Positions 10,134 through 32,721 of a stretch of 64,000 nt of DNA are shown here, in pieces (the first letter of the stretch is position 1; each line of letters begins with the position of its first letter). A program made the translations under genes and the position numbers. The stretch lies in contig NZ_OY761553.1 in NCBI RefSeq assembly GCF_963664735.1, positions 1,689,303 to 1,753,302 on the forward strand, written 5' to 3'. This DNA comes from an uncultured Cohaesibacter sp. (lineage in GTDB: Bacteria > Pseudomonadota > Alphaproteobacteria > Rhizobiales > Cohaesibacteraceae). The notes beneath the pieces are model-generated. The model was not told the origin of the DNA, searched no databases, and saw nothing but the letters and a program-made list of their open reading frames with translations.

Positions 10134-10181
10134 CAAATTTTCCTTTTATGTGGCCGGAAGCGGGCCGACTCGTTATTTGGG

Positions 10182-11881: not shown

Positions 11882-11922
11882 TCTATAACCTCACATGCGA
11901 TCATTCGCTTTAATAGCAAGAA

Positions 11923-11945
11923 GCGAGGGGACCGAGCCCCCTCGC
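11923..11945 (-). other. Intercistronic hairpin downstream of the binding-protein gene
   Basis: GCGAGGGG (11923-11930) and CCCCTCGC (11938-11945) form a perfect 8-bp stem with a 7-nt loop and no T-run. It sits 22 nt past the binding-protein stop inside the operon. Such hairpins commonly stabilise the upstream mRNA or attenuate readthrough, so that the binding protein outnumbers the permeases. Confidence 0.6.
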
Positions 11946-11966
11946 CAAAGCTTGTCCCAACGGGTA

Positions 11967-13247: not shown

Positions 13248-13300
13248 TGCTATGGTCCTTTTCATCCTGTTTGACTGTAAAATATGGATTTGGTTATGAA

Positions 13301-14386: not shown

Positions 14387-14412
14387 CGCTTGCCTCGCTT
14401 ATAAAAGGTCTA

Positions 14413-15204: not shown

Positions 15205-15477
15205 TCCCTGAACCATCTTGGCAAACAAAAGGTGAGACCAGAAACAAGCCAATCCAGAGAAGGTCTGGTCATTGAGCATTTCAAAAACCACCCCCCTTTT
15301 TGGGGATGTCTTTTCGCTTCCGGACTGTTTGTGATGGGGACGTTAGGCGAGGAATATTTCAGCTATTTGAACGTTATGTGTCATTCAAATGAAATTGAAA
15401 ATGGAACAGAGATTTTTCTCAGAATTCTCAAACAACTGTTTTTATTAAACTATTTTTTCAATTACCAACTGTTCTTA

Positions 15478-15978: not shown

Positions 15979-16785
15979 GTGAACAGGAATAATGACATTT
16001 TGAAGTTCATTCATTTGACGGATTGCCATATCGCGCGCGACGGCAACATGGTCTATGGTTCGCAATCAAGCACCCGATTGAGAGCGGCAATCGACAGCAT
16101 CAATAATGAGCATCACGATGCCGAGTTTGTGGTCATCACTGGCGATCTCACCCATCATGGAGACGATGCCGCTTACGAGGCATTTGCGCGTGAGCTACGC
16201 AGGTTGACGGTGCCCGCACACCTGCTCATGGGCAATCATGATGATGTGAAAAGCTTTCGCTTTCACTTTCCTGAAGCACAACGCTGTGACTGCGGTTTCA
16301 TTCAGGGCTCGAAACGCACCCCGTTCGGCCTTTGTCTATTTCTTGACACCAGCCAACCGGGCAGCTCTGCCGGTCGCTATTGCGAGGAAAGGCGGGATTG
16401 GCTGAATGGGGTTCTGAGCGAAACGTCTGGTCCGGTCATGCTTTTCATGCATCATCCCCCGTTCTCTATCGGCATTCCCGGCACGGACGACAGTCAGCTT
16501 GAGGACGCAGATGCGTTCTGGAAAATTCTAAGACCGCACCGCCAACGAATCCGCCACATATTTTTTGGTCATGTCCATCGCATGGTGTTTGGCAGCTGGC
16601 GTGGAATACCCGTTTCCTGCATGCGAGGGCTCAATCATCAGGTTGCTCTTGAATTAAATCGCTCCCCGAAAGGGCAGATTGGCAATTTCGAAGCTCCCGC
16701 TTATGGCGTTGTGCTGATCGACGAGACCCAAATCATGGTGCATATGCACGATTTTCTGGACCGTTCGGAACGGTTTGTCTTCTAG
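15979..16785 (+). CDS. Class III metallophosphoesterase (GpdQ/CpdA-like phosphodiesterase)
   Basis: This 268-aa calcineurin-like phosphoesterase has all dinuclear metal motifs: LTDCH (Asp15, His17), ITGDLTHHGDD (Asp56), MGNHDD (Asn86, His87), FMHHPPF and FFGHVH. Relatives hydrolyse cyclic nucleotides or glycerophosphodiesters. There is no signal peptide, so it is cytoplasmic. It starts at GTG with AAGGGGAG-CCGGAG upstream. It is divergent from the UgpB-like importer, so cleavage of an imported phosphodiester is a reasonable inference. Its stop overlaps the stop of the convergent GlxA-type gene at the palindromic CTAG. Confidence 0.85.
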   Translation: MNRNNDILKFIHLTDCHIARDGNMVYGSQSSTRLRAAIDSINNEHHDAEFVVITGDLTHHGDDAAYEAFARELRRLTVPAHLLMGNHDDVKSFRFHFPEAQRCDCGFIQGSKRTPFGLCLFLDTSQPGSSAGRYCEERRDWLNGVLSETSGPVMLFMHHPPFSIGIPGTDDSQLEDADAFWKILRPHRQRIRHIFFGHVHRMVFGSWRGIPVSCMRGLNHQVALELNRSPKGQIGNFEAPAYGVVLIDETQIMVHMHDFLDRSERFVF

Positions 16786-17765
16786 TCCGGCGACAAAATA
16801 TTGGTGCCGCAAAACTTATGCCGCCATGCAGCCGGAGGAGTGCCGAATTTCTGTCTGAAATGATGGCGCAAAGAGGCTGCGGTTTGAAATCCGGCCTCTT
16901 CTGCGATGCTTTCGATCGGAAGCGCCGTATTCTCAAGCAGATCCTGGCTTCGCCCCAAGCGCTCATCGAGCAACCATTGGGTAAAGCTGGTCCCCATATG
17001 CTTGCGAAAGATTCGTGTGAAGCTGCGTCGGCTCATATGGAGGCGGTCTGCTGCGGTCTCTATGCTGTAGCTCTGCGCCAGATTCTGCCGGATGGTCGCA
17101 ACGAGGTCAGCGAGCCGCTTTTCGGAAATCAATTGCGGCACGGGTCTTTCGATAAACTGGGATTGCCCCCCATCCCTGTGAGGGGCTACCACCATGGAAC
17201 GGGCGACCCTGTTTGAGACTTGAGCACCGAATTGGCACCGCATGACATGAAGACAGCAGTCGATTCCGGCGGCCACCCCTGCAGAGGTGATGATGGAACC
17301 AGCATCTATATAGAGGCGATCGGGCTGGAGAAGGACCTCAGGATAAAGCTGGGCAAAGCGGTCCGCATATGCCCAATGGGTTGTCGCGGCAACTCCGTCC
17401 AGAAGACCGGCTGCACCAAGCACGAATGCTCCTAAACAAAGACCAATGATCGTTACGCCTTTTTCATGCGCTGTTTGCAGCAATTCCAGCAAGGCCACGG
17501 ATGGGCGCACCTCCACATCATGCCATGTAGGCACGATAATCATGTCGCCAGCTTCAAAGCCCGCGCAAGCTGTAAAGTCCTCAAGGATAGACAGGTTGTA
17601 ACCATCTGCGGTTTTAATCTCTCCCTTGCGTTCAGCGCAAAGAAATGAGCGATAGCGCCCTCCCTTGTCCGCCCCCTGCCCGAAAACAGTCATCGGGATC
17701 CACAAGTGGAAAGGGCTGATCTGATCAAACGCAATTACCGCAACCCTTATGGTACGCCCATCCAT
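16782..17765 (-). CDS. GlxA-family AraC-type transcriptional regulator
   Basis: This 327-aa protein has an N-terminal DJ-1/PfpI-like sensor (residues about 6-190, with the nucleophile-elbow GLCLGAF at Cys110) and a C-terminal AraC double helix-turn-helix (about 215-320; YSIETAADRLHMSRRSFTRIFRKHMG and PIESIAEEAGFQTAASLRHHFRQKFG). AAGGAGAAG lies just upstream of the ATG. Such regulators often control catabolism of quaternary amines or nitrogen compounds. It is divergent from the isochorismatase-family gene with a 215-bp shared promoter region, so that gene is its likely target. Confidence 0.9.
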   Translation of the reverse strand: MDGRTIRVAVIAFDQISPFHLWIPMTVFGQGADKGGRYRSFLCAERKGEIKTADGYNLSILEDFTACAGFEAGDMIIVPTWHDVEVRPSVALLELLQTAHEKGVTIIGLCLGAFVLGAAGLLDGVAATTHWAYADRFAQLYPEVLLQPDRLYIDAGSIITSAGVAAGIDCCLHVMRCQFGAQVSNRVARSMVVAPHRDGGQSQFIERPVPQLISEKRLADLVATIRQNLAQSYSIETAADRLHMSRRSFTRIFRKHMGTSFTQWLLDERLGRSQDLLENTALPIESIAEEAGFQTAASLRHHFRQKFGTPPAAWRHKFCGTNILSPD

Positions 17766-17980
17766 GAATGCTTCTCCTTGCTCCTGGCAGTCTGCCTTCT
17801 GCTCGCGCCCGGGCAGCTTGGCTTTTTTGCGGCAGAGATGTTACTTTGGCCCGATCTTGGCACACATTGTCCTTCGGGTCACTTTCTTCTTTCCTTGATC
17901 TGGCTAATCTCATCATCACATCGACACTGTGGGCAAGATCAAGCCCGCTTCCGTCCCGATTATGAAATGGATAAAATGCC

Positions 17981-18505
17981 ATGACGCAGACCAAACCCGC
18001 CCTCATTCTGATTGACATACAGAATGACTATTTCGACGGCTTCGCTTTCCCTCAGCACGGGGCTGATGCCTTACTCAGCCGTCTATTGAATGCAGTGAAA
18101 ATAGCCAAAGAAAAGGCAATACCGATCATTTTGGTGCAACATGTAGCCGATGCATCAAAAGGAATGGCTCCGTTTTTCAATGAGGGAACAGAAGGCGTGG
18201 CCATTCACCCTGCATTGCTGGCAGAGCTGCCCGATGCACCGATTGTGATAAAGCACTCAGCGGACGCTTTTCGCGACACAGATCTGGCCGAGACTTTAGA
18301 AGCCGCGGGTGCCACGGAATTGCTCATCTGTGGAATGATGACGCAGAATTGCGTGACACACACGGCGATCTCTCGCCAAGCCGACGCTTACAAGGTCGGC
18401 GTGCTTTCGGACCTGTCAACTTCGGTGAGTGAAATGATCCACCTGATCGCACTCAATGCTCTGGCTCCTCTTGTCGAGGTGGGGCCATCGGAAGCCTTGC
18501 TATGA
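17981..18505 (+). CDS. Isochorismatase-family cysteine hydrolase
   Basis: This 174-aa cytoplasmic protein has the complete catalytic triad of the family: Asp12 (LIDIQNDYF), Lys91 (IVIKHSADAF) and Cys124 (GMMTQNCVTHTA). Such enzymes hydrolyse amides such as nicotinamide, ureidoacrylate or carbamoyl compounds. The substrate is not evident. It has no partner genes downstream; the next gene converges on it 27 bp away. Control by the divergent GlxA-type regulator is inferred from position. Confidence 0.88.
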   Translation: MTQTKPALILIDIQNDYFDGFAFPQHGADALLSRLLNAVKIAKEKAIPIILVQHVADASKGMAPFFNEGTEGVAIHPALLAELPDAPIVIKHSADAFRDTDLAETLEAAGATELLICGMMTQNCVTHTAISRQADAYKVGVLSDLSTSVSEMIHLIALNALAPLVEVGPSEALL

Positions 18506-18532: not shown

Positions 18533-20074
18533 TCAATCCGTGACAACGGCCCCTTGCGGCGTTACGCAATAGCGGGCCAATGTCTCGTCCATATGGCGCG
18601 CTCTCACATCAAGCAATTTCTCTGCATAGATAAGCCGAGTGCGCAGATAGCCTTCCTCTTCGGCCACATTGGTGAGGCAATGAGGGTCTTTTTCCAGATC
18701 AAACAGCAAGGCCGGAAAGCCGGGGATGTGAACATAGTGAAACTTCTCGTCCCTGAGCACCGCAAGCGAACATTCCTCCTGACGCATCCGCGCCTTGAGG
18801 TCCGCGCGTTCGGCCCGTTGTGCGCGGAAGTCAAACTCGTAGAAAGCGGCATCGCGCCAACCGGAGACCGCGTTGCCATACACATGTTCCATCAGCGAAG
18901 TACCATCAAGGCTGTTGGTAGCCTCCTCACCAAGCACTTCCAGAAGCGTTGGAAAGACATCGGCGCTGGAGGTAAAGGCATTGACGGTTTCGCCGCGGGC
19001 CCCATCAGGCGTCCGGATGATCAGCGGAATATGGTAGCTGGAGGCGTGAAAGCCCCCCTTGCCCAGCAACCAGTGATCGCCCATCATTTCGGCATGGTCG
19101 GAGGTGAAGATAAAGACCGTATTCTCCCAGAGCCCTCTTTCCTTAAGACTTGAGACTAGACGGCCAATCACAGCGTCGACCTCAGAGATCATGCCATAAT
19201 AGAGCGCTCGAATGCGGCTGAGATCGTGGGCGGAAAGATCCTTGACCTTGCCCCCCTGCTCCGGATTGCCATCCTCGTCATAACAAACGAAACCGGACAG
19301 TGCGTTGGTGTCGATCATCAGCTCGGAAAAGCCGTGGCTCGCCGCTTCGGCTGTTGCGCATTTGTGGCGGGAAAATTCCGGCCCGTCGTCGGGCTCGTAC
19401 ATGGAATTGTAAGGTTCCGGCACCACGAATGGCGGATGTGGACGGATGAACGAGAGATGGGCGAAGAATGGCGAATCCTCTTCTTGCCGCTCATCAAGCC
19501 AATCCTCCATTTTCTCCATCAAAAAGGCAGTCGGCGTTTCATCGGCACCATAGGGCAAGGACAAAAGGGAAACCCGTTCGCCGGGCTCGACAGGCGGCGT
19601 GTGTGCCTCGTGGCGGGTTTCTATGACATGACCTCGCTTTTTGAGCCATGTGAGCCAAGGCTTGTAATCCTCAAGCAGCAACTGCTGAACATCCATACCC
19701 GGCAATATGCCCTCATAGCTCTTGAGCGCGGGATCATCGGGAGCGAGCGTACGCGGATCAAGGCAAGTATCGGTATAACCAAACAGGGTCGGCTTATAGC
19801 CAGCCCTGCGCCCGGCCTTGGCGAGATTGTCGAACCCGTCAGCAAGGGGCGCACCATTGCGCACCACCCGATGGTTCATCTGATAGAGCCCGGTGTAAAG
19901 GGTTGCCCTTGCGGGAGAACAAGGTGCCGTTGCGCAATAGTGATTGCGAAAGAGCACCGCGTCTGCGGCAATTGCGTCCAGATTGGGCGTCTTGATGGTG
20001 GGATGCCCCACAGCCCCCAAACAGTCGCCGCGCCACTGATCTGCAGTGATAATCATGATATTCGGTCTGGACAT
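18533..20074 (-). CDS. Phosphonate monoester hydrolase-like enzyme (sulfatase superfamily)
   Basis: This 513-aa alkaline-phosphatase-superfamily enzyme carries a formylglycine site CSPAR (Cys52-x-Pro54-x-Arg56). The metal ligands are ITADQWRGD (Asp12) and FTSDHAEMMGDH (Asp326, His327). The block HLSFIRPHPPFVVPEPYNSMY and the late CSLAVLRDEKFHYVHIPGFPALLFDL resemble rhizobial phosphonate monoester hydrolase more than classical arylsulfatases. No signal peptide is visible, so it works in the cytoplasm and needs an imported substrate. It closes the operon behind phnX and phnW, which supports action on esters of 2-aminoethylphosphonate. A formylglycine-generating enzyme is not in the window. Confidence 0.82.
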   Translation of the reverse strand: MSRPNIMIITADQWRGDCLGAVGHPTIKTPNLDAIAADAVLFRNHYCATAPCSPARATLYTGLYQMNHRVVRNGAPLADGFDNLAKAGRRAGYKPTLFGYTDTCLDPRTLAPDDPALKSYEGILPGMDVQQLLLEDYKPWLTWLKKRGHVIETRHEAHTPPVEPGERVSLLSLPYGADETPTAFLMEKMEDWLDERQEEDSPFFAHLSFIRPHPPFVVPEPYNSMYEPDDGPEFSRHKCATAEAASHGFSELMIDTNALSGFVCYDEDGNPEQGGKVKDLSAHDLSRIRALYYGMISEVDAVIGRLVSSLKERGLWENTVFIFTSDHAEMMGDHWLLGKGGFHASSYHIPLIIRTPDGARGETVNAFTSSADVFPTLLEVLGEEATNSLDGTSLMEHVYGNAVSGWRDAAFYEFDFRAQRAERADLKARMRQEECSLAVLRDEKFHYVHIPGFPALLFDLEKDPHCLTNVAEEEGYLRTRLIYAEKLLDVRARHMDETLARYCVTPQGAVVTD

Positions 20075-20119
20075 GGCTAAGCCTTTCCCAAAAGCGGCGA
20101 CAGAGTTTGATCCTTGCGC

Positions 20120-20893
20120 CTAGAGCGCCTCGATAAGGGCAGGCAAATCAGCGACCGTGTCGATCACGTAATCGGCCCCACCCTCTTTGAGTAGCACAGT
20201 TGCAGCGTCTCGCAAGCGGGCAATCTCGTCTTCTGGCATCGCAGCAAGATCCTCAGGCGTTTTGCCCACGAAATTGCCTGACAGCGCCAGCCCAACGGTT
20301 ATGCATCCGGCGGCAACTCCTTCTTTAAGGCCCGGGACGGTATCATCCACCTTGATGATGGCTTCGGGCGGATAGACCGCCAGATTCACAAAGGTCTGAT
20401 ACATGCCAAGGGGACCGGGACGCCCTTCGGCAAGATCGTCGGCGCAAATGAGATTATCCGGCACAAAGCCCTGTTCTTTAACGACTGGCAAGACGTGCTC
20501 CATGATGGAGCGGGTATATCCGGTGGTGGAGCCGATCTTGATTCCACGGCGGCGCAGCCATGCGATTGTGTCAAGCGCCCCGGGCACCAGATCGGCATAG
20601 TCCGCGGCGACCTTCTCATTCATCGGCACGAAGATTTCATATATCTCGTCAACATCTGCATCGGTCGGCGCATTGCTATATTTTGCCCGCCACTGCGCTG
20701 CGATGTCATCATCGTTCATCATGGCACGGATATGATCCCACTTGGGCAGCCCCATCGGAGCGCGCGCCTGTTCGATGGTAGCCGTGATGCCAAACTGCTC
20801 GAAGCATTTAACGAACACACCCATCGGCGCGAAGCTGCCAAAATCAACCAGCGTTCCGGCCCAGTCAAACACAACTGCTTTAATCTCTTTCAT
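20120..20893 (-). CDS. phnX: Phosphonoacetaldehyde hydrolase (phosphonatase)
   Basis: This 257-aa HAD-family enzyme cleaves the C-P bond of phosphonoacetaldehyde to acetaldehyde and phosphate. The nucleophile motif is VVFDWAGTLVDFG (Asp10), and Lys51 in MGLPKWDHIRAM is the Schiff-base lysine that separates PhnX from other HADs. IGSTTGYTRSIMEHVLP and IIKVDDTVPGLKEGVAAG are the second and third HAD motifs. It lies 26 bp after phnW, so both steps are made from one transcript. Confidence 0.97.
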   Translation of the reverse strand: MKEIKAVVFDWAGTLVDFGSFAPMGVFVKCFEQFGITATIEQARAPMGLPKWDHIRAMMNDDDIAAQWRAKYSNAPTDADVDEIYEIFVPMNEKVAADYADLVPGALDTIAWLRRRGIKIGSTTGYTRSIMEHVLPVVKEQGFVPDNLICADDLAEGRPGPLGMYQTFVNLAVYPPEAIIKVDDTVPGLKEGVAAGCITVGLALSGNFVGKTPEDLAAMPEDEIARLRDAATVLLKEGGADYVIDTVADLPALIEAL

Positions 20894-20919
20894 TGAGGGT
20901 CATTCCTTCCGGTTTTCGT

Positions 20920-22134
20920 TCAAGCATTCAGTTTCTTGCGCTCTTGCAACGCTTCAGGGCATGGTGCGGCAGACTTAACGCCCAGCTCTTCAAGACTCTC
21001 CCGGGCAGCGACGACCACCCGCCGCATGATGGCTTCGTCCATCTGGCCGATGCAGCCGATGCGGAAGCTTTCAACGACGGTCAGCTTGCCCGGATAGATG
21101 ATGAAGCCCTTGTCTTTCATCAGGGCATAGAAGCGGTCAAAGTCGAAACGCTCGTCTGCCGGACAGAAGAAGGTCACGATGATGGGTGAAAGCCAACGCG
21201 CGTCAAGCAAGGTCTCAAAGCCCAACTCGCGCATACCTGCGACCATCACGTCGCGATTGTTGGCGTAGCGCGCTCCTCTTGCTGCGACGCCCCCCTCGGC
21301 TTCGTGCCCCTTCAGGGCTTCAAGGAAAGCGGCCACGATGTGTGTTGGCGGGGTGAAGCGCCATTGGCCGCTTTTTTCCATATTCTCCCACTGGGCGTGA
21401 AGATCGAGGCTCAGAGAATGGCAATTGCCCTTGGCTGCGACCAGCTCGCTATGACGGACCATCGCAAAGCCGAAGCCCGGCACGCCCTCAATGCATTTAT
21501 TGGCAGAGGAAACCAGCGCTTCATAACGGATCTCGGAAGGCTCAATAGGCACTGCACCGAAAGCAGACATGGAGTCGACCAGAAGCTTGCGGCCTGCGGC
21601 ATAGGTCGCTTCGGAAATTTCCGCCACCGGATTGAGGATGCCAGAACTGGTTTCACAATGGATCGCCAACACATGGGTGATTGTCGGATCATTGGCCAGA
21701 ATTTCAGCGACTTCTGCGCCTCTCGGCGGCAGATAGTCGCCTTTGTCTAGAAGATGATAGGCACGACCAATCACTTCCATCGTTTTGGCAGCTCGAAGGC
21801 CGTAGGCACCATTGGCCAGAACCAGCAACTTGCCATCTTTGGGCACCATGGTTCCAAGCATGGATTCGACCAGATAGGAACCAGACCCCTGCATCGGGAT
21901 ACATTCGAAAGCATCCTTTTCCGTGCCGAGCAAATCCAGAAGCCGGCGGCGCATTTCAGCGGTCATGGCGCGGAAATCACCATCCCAGCTGCCCCAGTCC
22001 TTCAACATGGCCTCCTTGACGGCGAAAGACGTGGTCAATGGACCGGGAGTGAGCAGAAACGGCTCTCCCATCTTGGGGTCTGGTAGCAAGCTGTTTTTCA
22101 AGCTACCGGTAAATTCGTTGTCCCGTTCAGTCAT
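20920..22134 (-). CDS. phnW: 2-aminoethylphosphonate:pyruvate aminotransferase
   Basis: This 404-aa PLP-dependent class V aminotransferase converts 2-aminoethylphosphonate and pyruvate to phosphonoacetaldehyde and alanine. LLTPGPLTTSFAVKEAML, GSGSYLVESML, VDSMSAFGAVPI (Asp187) and SSANKCIEGVPGFGF (PLP Lys213) are diagnostic. KGFIIYPGKLTVVESFRIGCIG is the C-terminal PhnW signature. It is about 35 residues longer than typical, split between an N-terminal extension and a tail. GAGGA lies 8 nt before the ATG. Confidence 0.96.
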   Translation of the reverse strand: MTERDNEFTGSLKNSLLPDPKMGEPFLLTPGPLTTSFAVKEAMLKDWGSWDGDFRAMTAEMRRRLLDLLGTEKDAFECIPMQGSGSYLVESMLGTMVPKDGKLLVLANGAYGLRAAKTMEVIGRAYHLLDKGDYLPPRGAEVAEILANDPTITHVLAIHCETSSGILNPVAEISEATYAAGRKLLVDSMSAFGAVPIEPSEIRYEALVSSANKCIEGVPGFGFAMVRHSELVAAKGNCHSLSLDLHAQWENMEKSGQWRFTPPTHIVAAFLEALKGHEAEGGVAARGARYANNRDVMVAGMRELGFETLLDARWLSPIIVTFFCPADERFDFDRFYALMKDKGFIIYPGKLTVVESFRIGCIGQMDEAIMRRVVVAARESLEELGVKSAAPCPEALQERKKLNA

Positions 22135-22179
22135 CGGACAATCCTCTTTTTTTCTGATTACTTATTTCCAATACCGGCC

Positions 22180-22193
22180 TGACTGATCAGTCA
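22180..22193. repeat. Perfect 14-bp palindrome upstream of phnW
   Basis: TGACTGATCAGTCA is a perfect palindrome in the 72-bp gap between the importer ATPase and phnW, 46 bp before the phnW start. It could be a regulator site or a short intercistronic hairpin. Confidence 0.5.
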
Positions 22194-22206
22194 TGGCGGG
22201 GGCTGT

Positions 22207-23352
22207 CTATTCGGCGGCTTCCTGTTGGCCGCGCGAGAAATCAAACTCATGCACCCTGTGACACGAGACAAAATGCTCCGAAGCAACTTCCTGCCACTGG
22301 GGAATTTCATTGGCACACTGCTCGGTCGCGTACGGACAACGGGTGTGAAAACGACACCCTGTTGGCGCGGCCAGCGGGTTCGGGATTTCTCCCTCCAGCT
22401 TGATCGGATCAAAGGTCTCTGCAGGGTCCACAGTGGGGATCGCAGAGAGAAGCGCGTGGGTGTATGGATGGCGCGGGTGATAGAAAAGGCTTTCGGTTGG
22501 CGCATATTCGACAAATTTGCCGACATACATCACCGCCACCCGATGAGACATCTGGGCCACCACAGACAAGTCATGTGCAATGAAAAGAAAGGCGACACCC
22601 ATCTCTTCCTGAAGGTCTTTCAACAGATTGACGATCTCGGCCTGAATGGACACGTCAAGCGCGGAAACGCTCTCATCGCAGACGACAAAATCCGGCTGTG
22701 TCACCAATGCCCGTGCAATGCATATGCGCTGTCTTTGTCCGCCCGAGAAAGCATGAGGAAACCGGCGCAAATGCTCCAGATTGAGCTTGCAGCGGCTGGC
22801 GATGTCGCGCACACGCTCGTCGATCTTCTCCCGATTTTTCATCATGCCTGACGCGACCAGCGGCTCGGCTATGATATCGCGTACCGTCATGCGAGGATTG
22901 AGCGAGGAATAGGGATCCTGAAAGACAAGGCTCATGCGGGGCCGGAAGGCCCGGAGAATGTCGCTGGCCATGTGGGCAATGGAATGAGGTCCTTCGGAGA
23001 AAACCATGCCCATTTTCTTGCGGAAGCGGCGCAGCTCCTCTCCTTCCAGTTCGTCAAGATAGATATCGTGCTCACGGGTATGAAAGATCACGTCCCCTGC
23101 CGTGGGATCAATGGCGCGCAGGATGGCTCGGCCAACTGTCGTTTTGCCTGAGCCGGATTCCCCAACAAGGCCAACGGTTTCGCCGCGGCGAATATCAAAG
23201 CTCACGTCATCTACCGCGCGCAGATAGGAAACCTCCGAGGAAAAGAGTTTCTTCTTGCGGATGGGAAAACGGACCTCAAGATTTTTGACCTCGATAAGAA
23301 GTTCATTCTTTTTCTTGATGCTATTTGCCATATTGTTCGCTTCCTCACTCAT
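22207..23352 (-). CDS. Oligopeptide-type ABC transporter ATPase (OppF/DppF type)
   Basis: This 381-aa ATPase has Walker [10 protein letters not shown] (residues 64-72), Q-loop [15 protein letters not shown] (about 143-157), signature [15 protein letters not shown], Walker [17 protein letters not shown] and the C-terminal oligopeptide/nickel motif [18 protein letters not shown]. About 27 extra residues ([20 protein letters not shown] region, about 115-140) precede the Q-loop, where relatives go straight from RRFRKKM to VFQDPY. Its start overlaps the OppD-like stop by four bases. It serves the same importer as the permeases upstream. Confidence 0.92.
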
Positions 23353-24350
23353 GCTTGAGCCCTCAGCTGTTTTTCATGCAGAAAGCAACGCACCGTGTGA
23401 TCTTCACCCACTTGCAGAATTTCCGGCTGATGCCGGTCGCAAAGCCCTGCAATTACCTTGGCGCAGCGAGTGTGGAACGGACAGCCGGTGGGGCGATCAT
23501 TCGGGCTCGGAATGTCGCCGGGGATGGGTGTCAGACGATCGTGCAGACGGTCCACACTGGGCAATGCCTTGATTAGCCCTTGGGTATAGGGGTGGGCTGG
23601 CTGATGGATGACCTTGTCGGTGGGGCCACGCTCGACAATCGTTCCCAGATACATGACGGCGACGTCGTCGGCGATATGGGAGATGACCCCCAGATCATGG
23701 GTGATGAAGATCATGCCCATGGAAAGATCGCGCTGAAGACTGCTCATCAATTCCAGCACCTGCGCCTGAATGGTGACGTCGAGCGCCGTGGTCGGTTCAT
23801 CTGCAATCAACAAGGCGGGACCTGCTGACAAAGCCAGAGCGATCATCGCACGCTGACGCATGCCGCCAGACATTTCATGCGGATATTGATCGATGCGCGC
23901 TTCCGGGTTTGAAATACCCACCTTATCGAGCATCTCGACGGCGATGCGGCGAGCATCCTTGCGCCCCACATTGCGATGCAGGCGGATGGCCTCCACCATT
24001 TGATTGCCAATGGTATAAACAGGCGAAAAGGATGCCATGGGCTCCTGAAAGATCATCCCGATCTCGCCACCGCGAATATGGCGGATTGCGCGACTGGTTT
24101 TACCCAATTTATTGATATCAATCACTTTTCCGGATTTGTCGGTGTAAAGGATTTTCGCTTCTTTGGAAATGACCCCATTGCCGGGCAAAAGCTGCATCAG
24201 CGCCTTGGTAGAAATGGATTTGCCTGAGCCGGATTCTCCCACGATGCCCAGCGTATGGCCGGGGCGCACTTCAAAGGAAATGTCCTGCACCGGCGTTATG
24301 AGACCTTCATCCGTACGGAAGGAAATGGAGAGATTTTCTACTTTCAACAT
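23349..24350 (-). CDS. Oligopeptide-type ABC transporter ATPase (OppD/DppD type)
   Basis: This 333-aa ATPase has Walker A GESGSGKSI, Q-loop MIFQEPMASFSPVYTI, signature MSGGMRQRAMIALAL, Walker B LLIADEPTTALDVTIQ and C-terminal NDRPTGCPFHTRCAKV. A longer frame opens at 24488, but the ABC fold begins at MLKVENLSISF (24350). AAAGGGCAG precedes that ATG, and the longer form would overlap the permease gene by over 100 bp, so I use 24350. Confidence 0.92.
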   Translation of the reverse strand: MLKVENLSISFRTDEGLITPVQDISFEVRPGHTLGIVGESGSGKSISTKALMQLLPGNGVISKEAKILYTDKSGKVIDINKLGKTSRAIRHIRGGEIGMIFQEPMASFSPVYTIGNQMVEAIRLHRNVGRKDARRIAVEMLDKVGISNPEARIDQYPHEMSGGMRQRAMIALALSAGPALLIADEPTTALDVTIQAQVLELMSSLQRDLSMGMIFITHDLGVISHIADDVAVMYLGTIVERGPTDKVIHQPAHPYTQGLIKALPSVDRLHDRLTPIPGDIPSPNDRPTGCPFHTRCAKVIAGLCDRHQPEILQVGEDHTVRCFLHEKQLRAQA

Positions 24351-24369
24351 GGTTCTATCTGCCCTTTTC

Positions 24370-25545
24370 CTAGCGAACGTCCGAATAAGGGTCGGCGGCA
24401 TCGCGCAGGCCGTCTCCCACCACCGTGAAAGCCAAAACGGCCAGCACGACGAAGACAGCCGGAATGAAGAGCCATGGCGTTTGCTCAATAACTCGCACCG
24501 ACTGGGCCTGCTGCAACAAGACGCCCCATGACACGGTCGGAGGACGCAGGCCCAACCCGACGAAGGACAGTGCTGTTTCGCTCAGGATCATGTAAGGAAA
24601 GGAAATCACCAGATCGACGATGATGAAGCTGGTAAAACTGGGCAGCATATGCTGGGAAATGATGCGCAAGGGGCGTGCTCCGGCCAGTCGCGCGGCGACA
24701 ACATAGTCCTCTGAGCGGATGGAGAGCAGCTGCGAGCGAATGCGCCGCGCCAGCGTCGGCCAGCCGAAGAGCCCCAAAATCAGCGTCATGGCAAAATAGA
24801 CTTCTGTGGTCGACCATTCCTTGGGCATGGCAGCCGCCAGCCCCATGTAAAGCGGGATGATGGGCACCACGCGGATAACTTCCGTTACGCGCTGGATGAT
24901 GTTATCCACCCACCCCCCGGCATATCCGGCCACGCCACCGATGATCAGGGCCAACACGAAAGAGATCAGCACACCGATTACCCCGATGGAAAGCGAAGTT
25001 CGGGTTGCATAGATTGTGCGCGAGAAGACATCGCGCCCCAGATCATCCGTGCCCCACAAATGCAGCTTGGCGCGTTTGTCATCGAGCTGGAACAGGTGGA
25101 TCTTCGAAGGAATGATGCCTATCAGCTCGGTCTTCTCTCCTTGCGCAAAGAATTTGACATAGACGCGCTTGTCCGGATCCGGCACAGAGATGGCACGCAG
25201 GGTCACCGGATCGCGTTTGGTGGAAACCCCATGAATGAAGGGACGCCATGAGCAGCCATTCTGATCGCAGAAGAGCGGCATCTGCGGCGCTCCATCGAGA
25301 TATTTGGTGTCGCGGCTGGTCGGGCCATAGGGAGCGACAAATTCGGCAAAGACACCAAGCAGCGCCATCAGCAGCAGCACAGTGGCGGCAACCATAGCGG
25401 CGCGATGGCGACGGAAGCGCCACCAGATCAGGGTCCATTGGCTGGCTGAGTAATATTTCAGCCGCTTCTTGTGCTCTTTGTCGCTCTCCCTTGATATGGA
25501 CGTCAGGGCTGCCGATTGCATTCGGTTTTCGGTCAAATCCGTCAT
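24370..25545 (-). CDS. Oligopeptide-type ABC transporter permease (OppC/DppC type)
   Basis: This 391-aa permease has a charged cytoplasmic N-terminus (about 45 residues), a first helix, and a long periplasmic segment (about residues 75-165) before LHLWGTDDLGRDVFSRTIYATRTSLSIG, the family's entry motif. The EAA loop is RSEDYVVAARLAGARPLRIISQHMLP. The large extracytoplasmic insertion, with Cys residues in FCDQNGCSW, makes it longer than E. coli DppC (300 aa). It is seen in permeases paired with very large binding proteins, as here. Confidence 0.92.
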   Translation of the reverse strand: MTDLTENRMQSAALTSISRESDKEHKKRLKYYSASQWTLIWWRFRRHRAAMVAATVLLLMALLGVFAEFVAPYGPTSRDTKYLDGAPQMPLFCDQNGCSWRPFIHGVSTKRDPVTLRAISVPDPDKRVYVKFFAQGEKTELIGIIPSKIHLFQLDDKRAKLHLWGTDDLGRDVFSRTIYATRTSLSIGVIGVLISFVLALIIGGVAGYAGGWVDNIIQRVTEVIRVVPIIPLYMGLAAAMPKEWSTTEVYFAMTLILGLFGWPTLARRIRSQLLSIRSEDYVVAARLAGARPLRIISQHMLPSFTSFIIVDLVISFPYMILSETALSFVGLGLRPPTVSWGVLLQQAQSVRVIEQTPWLFIPAVFVVLAVLAFTVVGDGLRDAADPYSDVR

Positions 25546-25547
25546 GA

Positions 25548-26543
25548 TCAGTTATTCCCCAACTTGATGCGCGGATCGAGCCACGCCAGCAAAATGTCCG
25601 AGATGAAATTCATCAGCACAATCATGAAGGTAAGCATCAACAGAATGGCTCCGGCGACATACATGTCGAGGTCTAGATAGGCGTTGAGCAGCAAATTGCC
25701 CAACTCGGTAAGGCCGAGAACAACGGCAACAATCGGCAGCTCGGAGAAAATACGGTTGACGTCAAATCCGATGGTGGAAACCACCGGGTTGATGGCAAGA
25801 CGGGCCGGATATTTGATCAGCAACTTGGTTTCCGGCACACCACGCGCACGCGCGGCCGTTACCGAGAGTTTGTTCAGCTCATCGGACATGGTGGCGCGGA
25901 TAGTCTGGATCTGATAGGCGACCGCCGACCATGCCAGCACAAAGGCCGGCAACCACAGATGCTTGAGCAAATCCCAGCCCTTGGCAAAGGACCATGGCGC
26001 ATCTTCCATATGGTTCGAAAAGAGGCCGCCGATATCGGCGCCAAACCAGAGGTTGGCAAAATAAAGCATGATGAGAGCCAGCAGAAAGTTCGGGAGTGCC
26101 AGCCCCAAATAGGAGAAGACCGTCAGCCCATAGTCCGCAAAGGACGCTCGCCTGACAGCGGCATAGATACCGATTGGTATTGAGACCAGATAAGTGAGCA
26201 GCAGCGTTCCGAACAGAATCGCCATGGTCAACCAGGCCTTGTCGCCGATAACCTTGGTCACATCTGTTTCAAACGCAAAGGCCTGCCCGAAATCGCCATG
26301 TAGAACGATGTTGCCGATCCAGTCGACATAACGCAGAGCCATTGGTTTATCGAGGCCAAAATCGTGGCGGATTGCCTGAATATCTGCTTCAGTGATAGCA
26401 ATGCCGGTGCCGGAATATTTCCGGAAAGCATAGCGGTCCGCATAGTCGCCCGGTGGTATTTCCATAATCAGGAATACCATCATGGAAACAAGCACCATCG
26501 TGACAATCATGCCAACCAGTCGCTCAAGTGTAAATCGAAGCAT
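25548..26543 (-). CDS. Oligopeptide-type ABC transporter permease (OppB/DppB type)
   Basis: This 331-aa permease has about six helices. N-terminal MLRFTLERLVGMIVTMVLVS, the motif FGLDKPMALRYVDWIGNIVLHGDFGQAF, the EAA loop ATMSDELNKLSVTAARARGVPETKLLIKYPARLAI and the C-terminal DILLAWLDPRIKLG are typical. The ATG at 26543 with GGGGA 8 nt upstream is preferred to an earlier frame start at 26624, which would run back through the intercistronic hairpin. It ends two bases before the OppC-like start. Confidence 0.92.
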   Translation of the reverse strand: MLRFTLERLVGMIVTMVLVSMMVFLIMEIPPGDYADRYAFRKYSGTGIAITEADIQAIRHDFGLDKPMALRYVDWIGNIVLHGDFGQAFAFETDVTKVIGDKAWLTMAILFGTLLLTYLVSIPIGIYAAVRRASFADYGLTVFSYLGLALPNFLLALIMLYFANLWFGADIGGLFSNHMEDAPWSFAKGWDLLKHLWLPAFVLAWSAVAYQIQTIRATMSDELNKLSVTAARARGVPETKLLIKYPARLAINPVVSTIGFDVNRIFSELPIVAVVLGLTELGNLLLNAYLDLDMYVAGAILLMLTFMIVLMNFISDILLAWLDPRIKLGNN

Positions 26544-26590
26544 CTTCAGGTCCCCACAAACAGGCCCGCACGCCATGGAACGGGCAATGA

Positions 26591-26610
26591 TGCGGGGGCA
26601 ATCCCCCGCA
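26591..26610 (-). other. Intercistronic hairpin after the binding-protein gene
   Basis: TGCGGGGG (26591-26598) and CCCCCGCA (26603-26610) form a perfect 8-bp GC-rich stem with a CAAT tetraloop, 28 nt past the binding-protein stop and without a T-run. The position matches hairpins that raise binding-protein mRNA over the rest of an ABC operon. Confidence 0.65.
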
Positions 26611-26638
26611 CCGGATGGTTTCATTCAGTCCAACAGGA

Positions 26639-28693
26639 TTATTTGGACATGAACCACTGTTGTGGACGGTATGGGTAGGTCCAGTAGAAGTCGTAGGACT
26701 TGGCCTTGATCGGTTTGACGTTTTTCAAGTCATTGCGATAAAGGAACGGCGCTACGATATCGCCGACGGTGCCGATCTTGAGCAGGTTGTCGACATGGAT
26801 CTTGACGATCTCTGCACCCAGCTTGTTGGATTCATCCGAGCCCATGGATACCTGAAGGAATTTCTCGGACAGGTCATAAAGCTCTTTGACATAGGCCGGT
26901 GGCTCAACGCCTTCCTTGCCATTGGAGTCTTTCCACTGGGCCCAGGCAAAGCCGGTGCCCGGATTGAAGACATCGCCGAACGGTGGGATGAAGGCTGTCA
27001 CGTCCTGAGAAATGGCCGGACCGGAAGTGCCGTCATATTTCCAGGTGGTCAGGTCCAGATCGTTGTTGTTGGCACCGGCGCGATACTCATCAGAGGTAAC
27101 CTCTTTGAGGTCGATACGCACGCCAACAGCTGACCAATAGTCACGAACCAGTTCCATGATTTTGACAGGCACGCCTTGAGAAGAATAGATCAGGCGGATA
27201 ACCAGCGGTTTTCCATCCGGACGTTCCAGAGTACCATCGCCATCGGAATCCTTCAGACCGATCTCAGCCAGCAGCTCCTTTGCATGGTCGGGATCGAATT
27301 CAATATCCTGATTGAGAATGTCTTCTGAGACGAAAGAAACTGTTTTCGGCTCGGCCGGAACGCCCTGTGCTGGCTTACCCTGTCCGAGATAAACGATTTC
27401 GTTGATTTCGTCGCGATCAAGAGCGATGGACATGGCGCGTTCAAAACGGATGTCATTGAACAACTTGGCCAGAACCGGATCCTTGTGGGTGCGGTTGAAG
27501 GAGAAGAAGATGTTCTCGCCGAAGGTTGGAGCGTAGGAAACCGTGTAGTTGCCTTTTGCTTCATTTTCCTTGAGCAGCGGGAAGTCTTCGAGGAACACAG
27601 CCTGCTGTTTCCAGACAACTTCGCCATTCATGATCTTGAGATTCTGAACTTCCTTGTCCTTGACATAGGTTTCGTCAATTTCAGGAATGTAAGGCAGCTG
27701 GTTACCGGCAGTGTCGACCATATGGAAATATGGGTTTGCGACCAGTTTGCGGCCTTCGGCATTTTCTTCAACCACAATGTGGGATTCCAGCGTTGGAACC
27801 ACAGCGCGACCGAATTTTTTGGCAACATCAGCGTCTTTCAGGAGCGGTGACGGAACGTCTTTCCAGTCAGAACCACCGTAATACATCTTGACGGCTGCAG
27901 CCCCGTTTTCAAGCCCCATTTCCTGAGCAAGCTTGTCAGCGTCCTTGTTGTATTTCGGCATGAACTGAGCAAGGAAATGCTTCGGCTGGAAAGCCTGTCC
28001 ATAGTCAACAGCAAAGCGGTTGAGAATGCCCGGCGTTGGAACCGGGAACGTGAAGGAGACGGTTACGTCGTCCTCGGCTTTTACAACAGCAGGCTTGCCT
28101 GCAAACAACCAACGACCAGGGGTCTTTTCGTAAACATCTTTATTCAAGATCAGGTCGTTGTACCAGAATTCGATGTCAGCGGCGGTGAAAGGCTCGCCAT
28201 CGGACCATTTGTGGCCCTTGCGCAGAGTGAAAGTCAGCTTGGTGTAATCGTCGTTCCATTCCCAGCTTTTAGCGATGTTTGGCACAACGGTCTGCAGGTC
28301 ATCGGCGTAACGCACAAGGTTTACATGGCGTACGGAAAGAAGGTCGGAGGTGCCGGATTCCGTGCCTTTGGAAAGACCGGTAATCACACCACCATAAGTG
28401 CCTACCGACTCATAAGGGGCGACAACAAGCGGCTCGGCTGGCAGGCGATCTGCAAGAGCTGGCAAGTCTTTGTTGCCGAAAATTTCGCTATTGAATTTTG
28501 CAATGTCCGGATTCTGGGCAAATGTCAGTTCGCAGTTGCCAGCTTTCTGGAATTCAGCCAGTTCAAACTGCTCTGGATAGGCAGAGGTCAGGCCTTTCAT
28601 GTCTGCAACAGTTGCCACCGGGCAGGCAGCAAAGGCAGAAACGCTCAGTGCGACATAGGCGGCACCGGCTAGAAAAACAGATTTAGGGCTCAT
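26639..28693 (-). CDS. Large oligopeptide-type ABC substrate-binding protein
   Basis: This 684-aa periplasmic solute-binding protein of family 5 has a signal peptide of about 22 residues (MSPKSVFLAGAAYVALSVSA). DYTKLTFTLRKGHKWSDGEPFTAADIEFWYND is the SBP_bac_5 core signature. FERAMSIALDRDEINEIVYLGQGKPAQG is the second conserved block. It is much larger than DppA or OppA (about 535 aa), a subclass that often binds conjugates rather than simple peptides. The ATG at 28693 has AGGGAG 9 nt upstream. As first gene after the regulator, in front of permeases, ATPases, phnW, phnX and a phosphonate-ester hydrolase, it probably binds a phosphonate ester or conjugate. The ligand is inferred. Confidence 0.88.
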   Translation of the reverse strand: MSPKSVFLAGAAYVALSVSAFAACPVATVADMKGLTSAYPEQFELAEFQKAGNCELTFAQNPDIAKFNSEIFGNKDLPALADRLPAEPLVVAPYESVGTYGGVITGLSKGTESGTSDLLSVRHVNLVRYADDLQTVVPNIAKSWEWNDDYTKLTFTLRKGHKWSDGEPFTAADIEFWYNDLILNKDVYEKTPGRWLFAGKPAVVKAEDDVTVSFTFPVPTPGILNRFAVDYGQAFQPKHFLAQFMPKYNKDADKLAQEMGLENGAAAVKMYYGGSDWKDVPSPLLKDADVAKKFGRAVVPTLESHIVVEENAEGRKLVANPYFHMVDTAGNQLPYIPEIDETYVKDKEVQNLKIMNGEVVWKQQAVFLEDFPLLKENEAKGNYTVSYAPTFGENIFFSFNRTHKDPVLAKLFNDIRFERAMSIALDRDEINEIVYLGQGKPAQGVPAEPKTVSFVSEDILNQDIEFDPDHAKELLAEIGLKDSDGDGTLERPDGKPLVIRLIYSSQGVPVKIMELVRDYWSAVGVRIDLKEVTSDEYRAGANNNDLDLTTWKYDGTSGPAISQDVTAFIPPFGDVFNPGTGFAWAQWKDSNGKEGVEPPAYVKELYDLSEKFLQVSMGSDESNKLGAEIVKIHVDNLLKIGTVGDIVAPFLYRNDLKNVKPIKAKSYDFYWTYPYRPQQWFMSK

Positions 28694-28768
28694 TGGAAGG
28701 TCTCCCTGTTTGGATCGAGCGAGACACTTCCTAGAGATTGTATTTAACAGTTTTATGAACATCTGTTA

Positions 28769-28789
28769 TCTATAGTTTTTAGCTATAGA
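28769..28789. promoter_or_regulatory. Candidate LysR operator upstream of the phosphonate operon
   Basis: A perfect inverted repeat TCTATAG (28769-28775) / CTATAGA (28783-28789) with a 7-nt spacer lies 76 bp upstream of the binding-protein start. Spacing and A+T richness fit a LysR-type recognition site. It lies between the regulator stop and the first operon gene. Confidence 0.5.
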
Positions 28790-28836
28790 AAGACAGGTGA
28801 CATAAATCATTCACAAGTCGTGGGGAAATAATTATT

Positions 28837-29706
28837 TCATGCGGAGGTAGTAACAGAATTATACATGGCATTGATCACCGAGACATGCTGCATCTCCGGT
28901 AAGCAAGCCAGATAATGAGAAACCGTGAGTGTTTCATCCTCAACAGGAATCGTAACCAGATTGTTCGAAGCGAGCACTTCGCCTTCCATTGCCACGCCGA
29001 TACCCATCCCCGAATTGATCGTGGTGACGATTGCCCCCCAGGACCCCAGCGCCAGCACTGTCTTCAAGCTCACGCCTGCGGCTTGAGCGGCTTTTTCAAA
29101 CACGCGTCTGGTGCCAGAGCTATTCTCGCGCTGGACGAGAGCGTTGCTTGCAACATCCAGCCAGCTGGCTTTGCCTTTTTCGCAAAGAGGATGCCCTTGA
29201 GGAACAACAAGAACAATGCGCTCCGTTCGAATCTTTTTGACATGCAAGTTCTGCGGAGCTTCTTTGGCCGTGATGAAAACAACGTCAAACTTGCCGTCTT
29301 CCAACAAAGGCAGGAGGTCGTTCGTCGCCATCGCACGCGCTTCAATATCAACGTCTGGAAACCTTGTCATGAAATTCGAAAGAATCGGCATGGCAAATTG
29401 ATATGTTGAGTAACCAAGCCGTAAAGACCCGGCCTGCATACGCCTGCGCCCTTCAAGGGCGAGTTCAATCTCATCGGTCATGGCAAGCACAGATCGAATT
29501 CGGGAAAGGATTTCCCTGCATGTCTCCGTGGCTTCCGCCTGACGCCCATTCCTATGGATCAATTGCGTACGATAGTGCTTTTCCAACGCTGACAGATGGT
29601 TGGATACCGAGGGTTGAGAAATACCCAACTCCTTGGCCGCAGCCGAAAAGCTGCCGGTGCGCACCACAGCTTCGACGGCACGCATCTGATTGATAGATAA
29701 TTTCAT
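28837..29706 (-). CDS. LysR-type regulator of the phosphonate operon
   Basis: This 289-aa regulator has an N-terminal winged helix-turn-helix (residues about 1-60: MKLSINQMRAVEAVVRTGSF and AAKELGISQPSVSNHLSALE). An effector domain of two lobes follows (RLGYSTYQFAMPILSNFMTRFP, then WGAIVTTINSGMGIGVAME). It lies immediately upstream of, and on the same strand as, the importer-phnW-phnX operon. Control of that operon by AEP or a derivative is inferred. LysR regulators adjacent to phnWX are common in Proteobacteria. Confidence 0.9.
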   Translation of the reverse strand: MKLSINQMRAVEAVVRTGSFSAAAKELGISQPSVSNHLSALEKHYRTQLIHRNGRQAEATETCREILSRIRSVLAMTDEIELALEGRRRMQAGSLRLGYSTYQFAMPILSNFMTRFPDVDIEARAMATNDLLPLLEDGKFDVVFITAKEAPQNLHVKKIRTERIVLVVPQGHPLCEKGKASWLDVASNALVQRENSSGTRRVFEKAAQAAGVSLKTVLALGSWGAIVTTINSGMGIGVAMEGEVLASNNLVTIPVEDETLTVSHYLACLPEMQHVSVINAMYNSVTTSA

Positions 29707-31460: not shown

Positions 31461-31731
31461 GTGTTGTAGAGCCAATCGCTGTTTCAAGCATCTTTGTCCT
31501 CTGCCACAGCACCCTCAATAGCCACCAATTTCAAAATCAAACATACCTCTTTGGGCGAGAAATATGCTCAAACGGAGCTTGAAGGCTGGCTCTCTGCCAA
31601 GAGGGCCGCTACACTCGTAACTCTATCAATTCGGTTTTCCTGTTCCTGATCGGGTCGTGTTCCCAAGATGGCTTTAAAGCCAGCTGATCATGGCCCCATC
31701 AGAGACCAAGATATGCTTGAACGAGGGTGTC

Positions 31732-32721
31732 ATGCTTCAATCTGTTTCCGATCGGTACTTCATCCCTACTCTCCTTTTCACCATCATACTGTTTGCCTGC
31801 GCCTTTTCCGTGGAGCCAGCCAAAGCAAATGACGGGTCAGCCATGCTGGAAGCGGGAGGAATCCGCCTCGTTGAAAATCAAGTGATTTCGCTTGACGTGG
31901 AAGATCTCTATATCAGCCCCAAGGAAATTCGCATTCATTATGAGTTCGTCAATCCATCGGATCAGGATGTCAAGTTGCTCGTTGCCTTTCCAGTTCCGTT
32001 GATCGACGCAGAGCCTGAAATGAATTACGGCAATCAGAATGTTGATCCCGTCAATTTTCTTGATTTCACCGTTATCGCAAACGGTAAGCGCATATCCCCC
32101 GAGATGGAAGTCAAGCTTGTCATGAACGGGCAGGATTACACCAAGCTGCTTATCGACAATGGCGTGCCTCTGCACCGCTTTTCTCCGGACTATTATGAGC
32201 GGCTTGACAAGATCTCTGCTGCTTCAAGGCAAATTCTTGCCCAAAACGGCCTGATAGAATGGACGCCCGGCGAAGAATGGTTCACCAAAAAATGGAAAGT
32301 GAAGGTCAACTATTATTGGTGGCAAACCTTCCCGGCCAACAGCCGCACCGTGCTCGATCATAGTTATGCACCAGTTGTGGGTGGCGGCATTGTCGACGAA
32401 GAATATGGCATTAGAGACAATATCGGACGCTTTTGCATCGACGACGGATTTATTCGCGGCTTTCGCAATCTACTCAAGCAAAGCGGACATAATTCCACGA
32501 TCAGCTCGGAAGTTCGCTACATCCTCATGACAGCCAATACATGGCTTGGACCGATTGGAGATTTTCGTCTGGTGATCGACAAGTTGAAACCGAAAGACCT
32601 GATTTCGCTTTGCATCAACGGCATTCATAAAATTGCACCGACGCGATTTGAATTCCGCGCCAAGAACTTTGTTCCAGACAGAGATCTGGATATTCTGTTT
32701 ATCAAGCAGCCGGATTGGTAA
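31732..32721 (+). CDS. DUF4424-family exported protein
   Basis: This 329-aa protein has a signal peptide ending near VEPAKA (about residue 34 with the chosen start). LISLDVEDLYISPKEIRIHYEF-like sequence, the block WFTKKWKVKVNYYWWQTFPANSRTVLDHSYAPVVGGG and FRLVIDKLKPKDLISLCINGI match the DUF4424 family of beta-rich periplasmic proteins of unknown role. The ATG at 31732 is chosen because GAGGG lies 5 nt before it; an upstream ATG at 31690 adds 14 residues before the signal peptide. A 14-bp palindrome TGGCTTTAAAGCCA (31669-31682) lies 50 bp upstream. Confidence 0.8.
   Translation: MLQSVSDRYFIPTLLFTIILFACAFSVEPAKANDGSAMLEAGGIRLVENQVISLDVEDLYISPKEIRIHYEFVNPSDQDVKLLVAFPVPLIDAEPEMNYGNQNVDPVNFLDFTVIANGKRISPEMEVKLVMNGQDYTKLLIDNGVPLHRFSPDYYERLDKISAASRQILAQNGLIEWTPGEEWFTKKWKVKVNYYWWQTFPANSRTVLDHSYAPVVGGGIVDEEYGIRDNIGRFCIDDGFIRGFRNLLKQSGHNSTISSEVRYILMTANTWLGPIGDFRLVIDKLKPKDLISLCINGIHKIAPTRFEFRAKNFVPDRDLDILFIKQPDW

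Follow-up and report, generated by a model that had tools for sequence, protein, structure and literature searches.

A conserved Cohaesibacter operon predicted to import and cleave esters of 2-aminoethylphosphonate

The operon and its genes

We analysed a 64,000-nucleotide stretch of DNA (the window) from an uncultured Cohaesibacter sp. (contig NZ_OY761553.1, positions 1,689,303 to 1,753,302). Positions 18533-29706 hold nine genes, all on the minus strand, which encode in order of reading a LysR regulator, a substrate-binding protein, an Opp-type ATP-binding cassette (ABC) importer (OppB, OppC, OppD, and OppF), PhnW, PhnX, and a phosphonate monoester hydrolase (PMH). The spacing ranges from a 4-base overlap (OppD and OppF) to 143 bases (LysR and the binding protein), and family scans fit the run of nine same-direction genes with short gaps or overlaps that a sequence-only reading had described here. 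Promoter and terminator scans returned no more sites than in shuffled sequence. Judged from its genes and their relatives, the operon probably imports an intact monoester of 2-aminoethylphosphonate (AEP), hydrolyses the ester in the cytoplasm, and mineralises the AEP for phosphorus.

The regulator (28837..29706) is by profile scans a relative of the LysR family of AEP catabolism (TIGR03339, below cut-off). The family-5 binding protein (26639..28693) has 684 amino acids when its start is set at 28693, the listed open reading frame being longer, and its N-terminus is a typical signal peptide (judged by eye, no predictor). Profile scans also assigned the permeases OppB (25548..26543) and OppC (24370..25545) and the ATPases OppD (23349..24350) and OppF (22207..23352). 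OppB probably starts at 26543, with MLRFTLERL (listed start, 26624), and OppD probably at 24350, with MLKVENL (listed start, 24488). Pfam matches comprise SBP_bac_5 (PF00496) in the binding protein, BPD_transp_1 and OppC_N (PF00528, PF12911) in the permeases, and ABC_tran and oligo_HPY (PF00005, PF08352) in the ATPases, which is the composition of an Opp/Dpp-type ABC importer, together with Sulfatase in the hydrolase. PhnW (20920..22134), the AEP:pyruvate transaminase, scores 469.2 bits with TIGR02326 (cut-off 400.8), and PhnX (20120..20893), phosphonoacetaldehyde hydrolase, scores 331.3 bits with TIGR01422 (cut-off 220). The PMH gene (18533..20074) closes the operon. A C-P lyase (PhnJ) is encoded elsewhere in the genome.

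The hydrolase and the binding protein

The hydrolase, a member of the alkaline-phosphatase superfamily by profiles and alignment, begins with MSRPNIMIITADQW and, as the sequence-only reading had it, shows no signal peptide (judged by eye, no predictor). Its CSPAR formylglycine site, also described before, is C52 within APCSPARAT and fits the CxPxR pattern; the match to PF00884 (180 bits) places the enzyme in the sulfatase/alkaline-phosphatase family. The nearest solved sequences are 4uph (E 7e-178), deposited as a sulfatase, and the phosphonate monoester hydrolases 2w8s (E 7e-104) and 2vqr (E 3e-101). We take a gene of plasmid pRL9 to be that of RlPMH, since the 2vqr entry carries the name pRL90232; a literature search for that name found no paper. 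Ten of 11 compared active-site positions are identical in an alignment with RlPMH, under residue numbers that we take to be those of that enzyme. At the eleventh, RlPMH has Thr107 and the window hydrolase Asp102, and the other compared rows have Asp except for one Ser. According to the Introduction of PMC5488252, PMHs carry Tyr plus Asp or Thr where related arylsulfatases carry Lys plus His, and most PMHs have Asp. Y100 and D102 fit this rule and thus form a PMH signature, by which the enzyme is predicted to be a phosphonate monoester hydrolase and not an arylsulfatase; the resemblance to rhizobial PMH noted earlier is borne out at the level of the active site.

An identity as arylsulfatase or choline sulfatase was rejected on the Tyr/Asp signature and on weaker family scores, and the presence of PhnX, together with the formylglycine type of the enzyme, led us to reject a PhnA-type phosphonoacetate hydrolase as well. 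A profile search of the window genome returned the hydrolase as the only PF00884 match. A single radical SAM enzyme of the sulfatase-maturating kind also passes its cut-off in this genome, and no PF00884 partner other than the hydrolase was found there for it; an FGE-type maturase had no match in the genome. A search of viral contigs for PMH found nothing.

An AlphaFold model of the binding protein (mean predicted local distance difference test, pLDDT, 79.7) is closest to the pectin-binding SPH1118 with galacturonate, its nearest solved structure, then to 5ipw, and then to MelB with melibiose, raffinose, or galactinol, and binders of nonapeptide, chitin, and nickel rank far lower. A sequence search gave the same ranking (SPH1118, 5ipw, an alpha-galactoside binder). 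Since its nearest relatives are pectin- and melibiose-type sugar binders, a sugar conjugate fits the modelled protein better than a peptide conjugate. Of the partners suggested earlier for AEP (a glycerol, sugar, or peptide), the peptide is disfavoured, as structures of binders that hold a peptide come well below SPH1118.

The importer might instead take up free AEP or AEP peptides, with the hydrolase acting on another ester that arrives with them, such as a sulfate ester or a polysaccharide-derived phosphate. Opp-type systems are best known for peptides, and 5ipw, the second nearest structure, is deposited as oligopeptide-binding with no ligand shown. No phnS2-type binding protein lies over cut-off in the window genome (other AEP importers were not searched for), so an importer for free AEP may be needed. 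Some Stappiaceae retain PhnX and PMH without this Opp system, and in one genome, G682, the importer family is accompanied by PhnW and PhnX, while the fetched part contains no PMH. We nevertheless consider uptake of free AEP or its peptides improbable, since SPH1118 outranks the peptide-bound binders both by sequence and by model, the hydrolase has the signature of a PMH and not of an arylsulfatase, and Opp-PMH pairs exist without PhnW or PhnX.

Gene order and gene pairs in other genomes

The order binding protein-OppB-OppC-OppD-OppF-PhnW-PhnX-PMH is kept in 10 of 17 other Cohaesibacter genomes sampled, in one of which (G016) the contig ends inside PMH. The remaining seven are without this close PMH, and one of them is only 64% complete. 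A variant without PhnW, LysR-binding protein-Opp-FAD oxidase-PhnX-PMH, occurs at two Roseibium loci (L104 and L106) and at locus L041 of G036, a genome from a different family; the FAD oxidase of L106 passes the TIGR03364 cut-off and occupies the PhnW position. In G590, the order is altered to PhnX-PMH-binding protein-Opp, its PhnX being known by position only. PhnX lies within about 10 kb in 18 of 73 named PMH relatives, some of which are cut by contig ends; a 74th match, at 24% identity, was set aside. Uniqueness of the synteny to the window genome had been set beforehand as a ground for refutation and is rejected: the order recurs in Cohaesibacter, Roseibium, and other families, and the operon is for that reason not a chance arrangement.

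The last position of the operon is not always filled by the same enzyme. On a plasmid of SC52, a Rhodobacteraceae member from sea cucumber intestine content, a binding protein (76% identity), Opp genes, PhnW, and PhnX are followed by a hydrolase that is 33% identical to that of the window. Similarly, G820 has LysR, a binding protein (60-61%), and OppB, then an unfetched stretch (with OppC), then OppD, OppF, PhnW, PhnX, and a hydrolase 35% identical to the window's. These two hydrolases share 49% identity with each other and both keep the compared PMH residues. A tree of 129 PMH rows, which does not include G820, groups the SC52 hydrolase with the Opp-linked L125-L127 in a PMH clade other than that of the window; its branch is long and its placement unsure. 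A slot that is retained while its occupant changes to a different PMH lineage suggests selection for PMH activity.

The hydrolase could also be a functionally unlinked neighbour in a mobile or often-shuffled region; an Opp cassette was not found at 58 of 70 class PMH-family loci, and many other contexts occur. We regard this as highly improbable, given that the hydrolase gene lies on the same strand after a gap of 45 bases, that the order is conserved across several families (G590 having a changed order), and that a different PMH lineage sits in the same slot.

An Opp cassette (binding protein, OppB, and OppC) lies within 8 kb of 12 of 70 PMH-family loci and of none of 40 control sulfatases (Fisher p = 0.0037), where the 70 are all non-own PMH-family matches of the class sample (E up to 1e-80). 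Half of the twelve (L128-L133) have the window type of binding protein, and the other half (L203, L207, L208, L210, L212, and L214) have a different type. Binding proteins at least 40% identical have a listed PMH-family match within 12 kb in 7 of 12 places in the class and 15 of 23 among the relatives, own genome included. PMH and PhnX occur together in 16 genomes, with 61 and 39 of 385 carrying each (p = 5e-5, own genome included, genome size and kinship uncontrolled). The pRL9 gene taken as RlPMH directly precedes an Opp-type binding protein, two ATPases, and two permeases, and an annotated PMH-Opp pair is also present in Pseudoroseomonas. No such pair was found in the examined stretch of Ruegeria sp. 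AD91A, or in that of R. pomeroyi, which has two ABC permeases of untested type at its far edge. PhnW matches lie near PMH in L167 and L181.

These pairs also bear on the possibility of a general phosphodiester module, in which Opp would import varied small phosphodiesters or phosphonate monoesters (e.g., glycerophosphoethanolamine-like ones), PMH would be a broad cytoplasmic phosphodiesterase, and PhnWX would only clear released AEP. Nine fetched loci (L125-L133) have Opp and PMH without PhnW, PhnX, or an FAD oxidase in the same stretch. In four of them (L129, L130, L131, and L133), relatives of three further proteins are encoded within 8 kb: a choline-kinase-like kinase, a GlpA-like FAD enzyme, and a GlpR/DeoR-type regulator. 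Other phosphodiesterases stand beside the same importer family (calcineurin-type in L148 and L149, PF01663 in L266, and a GDPD convergent with OppF in L134), and in Aureimonas a PMH relative adjoins DeoR and glpD genes. On the other side, none of the 70 PMH-family loci (and none of the 40 controls) has a GlpD relative nearby, and PhnX is near PMH in 17 of 18 kept rows of the window clade, or 17 of 21 if the thinned Stappiaceae belong there, which suggests specialisation. These rows are to be read with the thinning of the tree, in which PhnX-less rows among L054-L122 were cut to about one quarter (129 of 170 rows kept), a step that took out three of the four PhnX-less Stappiaceae loci. As an account of the window operon, the general module seems to us rather unlikely. 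Near PMH loci and controls, respectively, the GlpA-like FAD enzyme is found at 7/70 and 1/40, DeoR at 6/70 and 0/40, and the kinase at 4/70 and 0/40; a tie between PMH in general and glycerol-3-phosphate dehydrogenase was looked for and not found, and the set of DeoR, kinase, and FAD enzyme is confined to one clade.

AEP is the phosphonate analogue of phosphoethanolamine. Because the importer family also pairs with PMH or other phosphodiesterases without PhnW, PhnX, or FAD oxidase, its common substrate class looks like small phospho- and phosphono-diesters, with AEP esters a specialised case here. Import and hydrolysis of AEP esters, the reading we favour for the window operon and the one first proposed from the sequence alone, accordingly gains from the synteny and the PMH signature and is too narrow for the importer-PMH pairs as a whole.

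Several observations weigh against AEP-ester import, in addition to G682 and 5ipw above. The best match of the regulator, TIGR03339 phn_lysR, reaches 210.2 bits where the cut-off is 341.1, and the best NCBI model of the hydrolase, PehA NF045661, gives 466.6 bits where 900 would make a PehA equivalog. PhnX is not near PMH in four Stappiaceae loci (L101, L102, L103, and L112) or beside many Rhizobium PMH relatives (52-56% identity), one of which (L083) lies, by eye, between galE-like and ribose-type ABC genes. PhnW and PhnX stand about 12 kb from OppF in G425, and PhnX about 32 kb from the binding protein in G748. With the window's own locus set aside, PhnX was found within 8 kb of none of the 70 PMH-family class loci, so its link to PMH belongs mainly to a single clade. 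Elsewhere in the tree, G036/G076 also have a PhnX neighbour, as do two separate Rhizobiaceae rows (L055 and L090); the pairing is strong in one clade and scattered otherwise. The count of 12 of 70 includes three loci from one genus (L203, L207, and L208) and used search profiles partly built from the counted L128-L133, and its 40 controls come from a nearer, genus-to-order sample, several from the same genomes; contig ends cut some of the loci. At seven importer loci (L137, L138, L140, L142, L143, L144, and L147), a scan of a few neighbours (none in L147) recognised no hydrolase, and further importer loci are cut by contig ends. Finally, the phosphonate esters of marine organic matter named in the text of PMC5649143 drawn on here are those of methyl- and hydroxyethylphosphonate, not AEP.

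Some loci deserve mention in their own right. In L272 (1258-3346), PhnW (68%), a divergent PhnX (39%), and a DMT-transporter-like gene (by eye) adjoin an Opp importer of 50% identity, and the fetched part contains no PMH. In L083 (4219-20118), PMH directly follows the galE-like gene, and after it come the ribose-type ABC genes and also a Dpp-type system that includes a dipeptidase-like protein (by eye); parts of this gene set recur at other Rhizobium loci, a differing context for the same enzyme. On a plasmid of Roseibium aggregatum S1616 (L159, 8066-15839), a PMH relative and an Opp-type ABC system lie divergently to a phnF-type regulator, and on an Aureimonas plasmid (L270, 7965-12309), a PMH-family gene adjoins DeoR/GlpR, glpD, and a glycerol-type ABC system. 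Opp and PMH lie beside glutamine-synthetase-like, Fe-alcohol and aldehyde dehydrogenase, N-formylglutamate amidohydrolase-like, and phosphatase-like genes in L127 (13236-19830) and L157 (10415-18786). The glutamine-synthetase-like, dehydrogenase, and amidohydrolase-like set is also found beside an importer relative in Ruegeria conchae, and a gene set of this kind would possibly suit an ethanolamine-type breakdown.

Within the window, a second locus (9312-15291) has UgpBAEC-like ABC importer genes of the glycerol-phosphate type (below model cut-offs), a GlpR-like DeoR regulator, and a xylose-isomerase-like protein. A calcineurin-like phosphodiesterase related to SpdA, below the SpdA model cut-off, is encoded on the plus strand at 15979-16785. 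An FtrA-like AraC regulator and an isochorismatase-family protein (16782-18505) lie between the UgpBAEC-like locus and the AEP operon, and a DUF4424 protein is encoded at 31690-32721.

Proposed mechanism and known systems

In the mechanism that we propose, the binding protein would capture an AEP conjugate, probably a sugar or glycerol ester that derives from phosphonoglycans or phosphonolipids, and OppBCDF would carry it into the cell. In the cytoplasm, the formylglycine hydrolase would cut the P-O-C ester to give AEP and an alcohol, PhnW would convert AEP to phosphonoacetaldehyde, and PhnX would split this into acetaldehyde and phosphate. The reactions of PhnW and PhnX are established; the ligand, the reaction, and the order of steps in the operon we infer.

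A wider reading, which we hold tentatively at somewhat less than an even chance, is that an Opp importer with a cytoplasmic PMH or other phosphodiesterase forms recurrent diester-uptake modules, mostly in Alphaproteobacteria, and that this is the natural role of PMHs including RlPMH. Marine lineages would then have added PhnW or the FAD oxidase, and PhnX, to mine AEP esters of phosphonoglycans and phosphonolipids, with the hydrolase slot filled from more than one PMH lineage.

PMHs have served as model promiscuous enzymes, yet the passages of PMC5488252 drawn on here name no natural substrate for them, nor does that term appear there; if our reading is true, the operon would give this long-studied class a natural role. 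Phosphonates are put at 20-25% of marine high-molecular-weight dissolved organic phosphorus (in part of PMC8931226), phosphonate esters on marine polysaccharides are described (in part of PMC5649143), and most of the capacity of bacteria to make phosphonates is believed to serve the decoration of cell surfaces with AEP-like molecules (in part of PMC6697681). Alkaline-phosphatase-like enzymes have been proposed to free phosphonates from polysaccharides in a marine isolate (PMC5649143, which names a PMH relative) and in Prochlorococcus (PMC8931226), and the portions of these two papers on that step name no transporter for it. The conserved operon names an importer, a hydrolase, and a downstream route, and AEP release and the role of PMH become testable in culturable bacteria.

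The operon would share with the AEP importers AepXVW, AepSTU, and AepP the supply of AEP. The statement in the sequence-only reading that Aep-type importers are not Opp-like agrees with the relevant part of PMC8316502, in which the binding proteins AepX and AepS belong to pfam13343 and AepP is a major-facilitator (MFS) permease, none of them family 5. The window binding protein falls outside pfam13343, matching only PF00496 at E 0.001.

With RlPMH (PehA), the window hydrolase shares family, formylglycine site, and the ten active-site residues, and it has the Asp of the D-PMH type (PMC5488252). The two enzymes differ in overall sequence (37-38% identity) and in Asp102 versus Thr107. They also differ in their surroundings: the pRL9 gene adjoins an Opp-type ABC system with no annotated phn gene, whereas the window hydrolase adjoins PhnWX.

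The agrocinopine system AccA-AccF follows the same working logic, in which an ABC system imports a conjugate that a hydrolase then cleaves; the likeness is one of logic, and we claim no membership. The agrocinopine importer is also an Opp-type, family-5 system, and AccF belongs to a hydrolase family other than PMH. As described in part of PMC4526662, a binding-protein-dependent ABC system imports the phosphodiester conjugate agrocinopine, which the phosphodiesterase AccF then cleaves. AccA-AccF thus acts on a phosphate conjugate, whereas the window operon is proposed to act on a phosphonate.

The closest likeness is to PhnWX (phosphonatase) operons. Like those with a LysR regulator, the window has PhnW and PhnX over their cut-offs and a LysR protein nearest to the phn type. 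Like those with Pbf-type FAD enzymes, relatives of the window operon have a TIGR03364-type FAD enzyme for PhnW; Pbf enzymes oxidise N-methyl-AEP, and some also AEP, to phosphonoacetaldehyde, the substrate of PhnX (as given in part of PMC10590968). The window operon differs from PhnWX operons in its Opp-type importer, whose binding protein most resembles a pectin binder, and in its ester hydrolase without a signal peptide. The PhnWX route, PMH enzymes, and Opp-type importers are each already known; no description of the three together was found among the literature matches listed, in a search mostly outside subscription journals. What appears to be new is their combination in one conserved operon, in which import would precede hydrolysis, as a variant of the known AEP operons.

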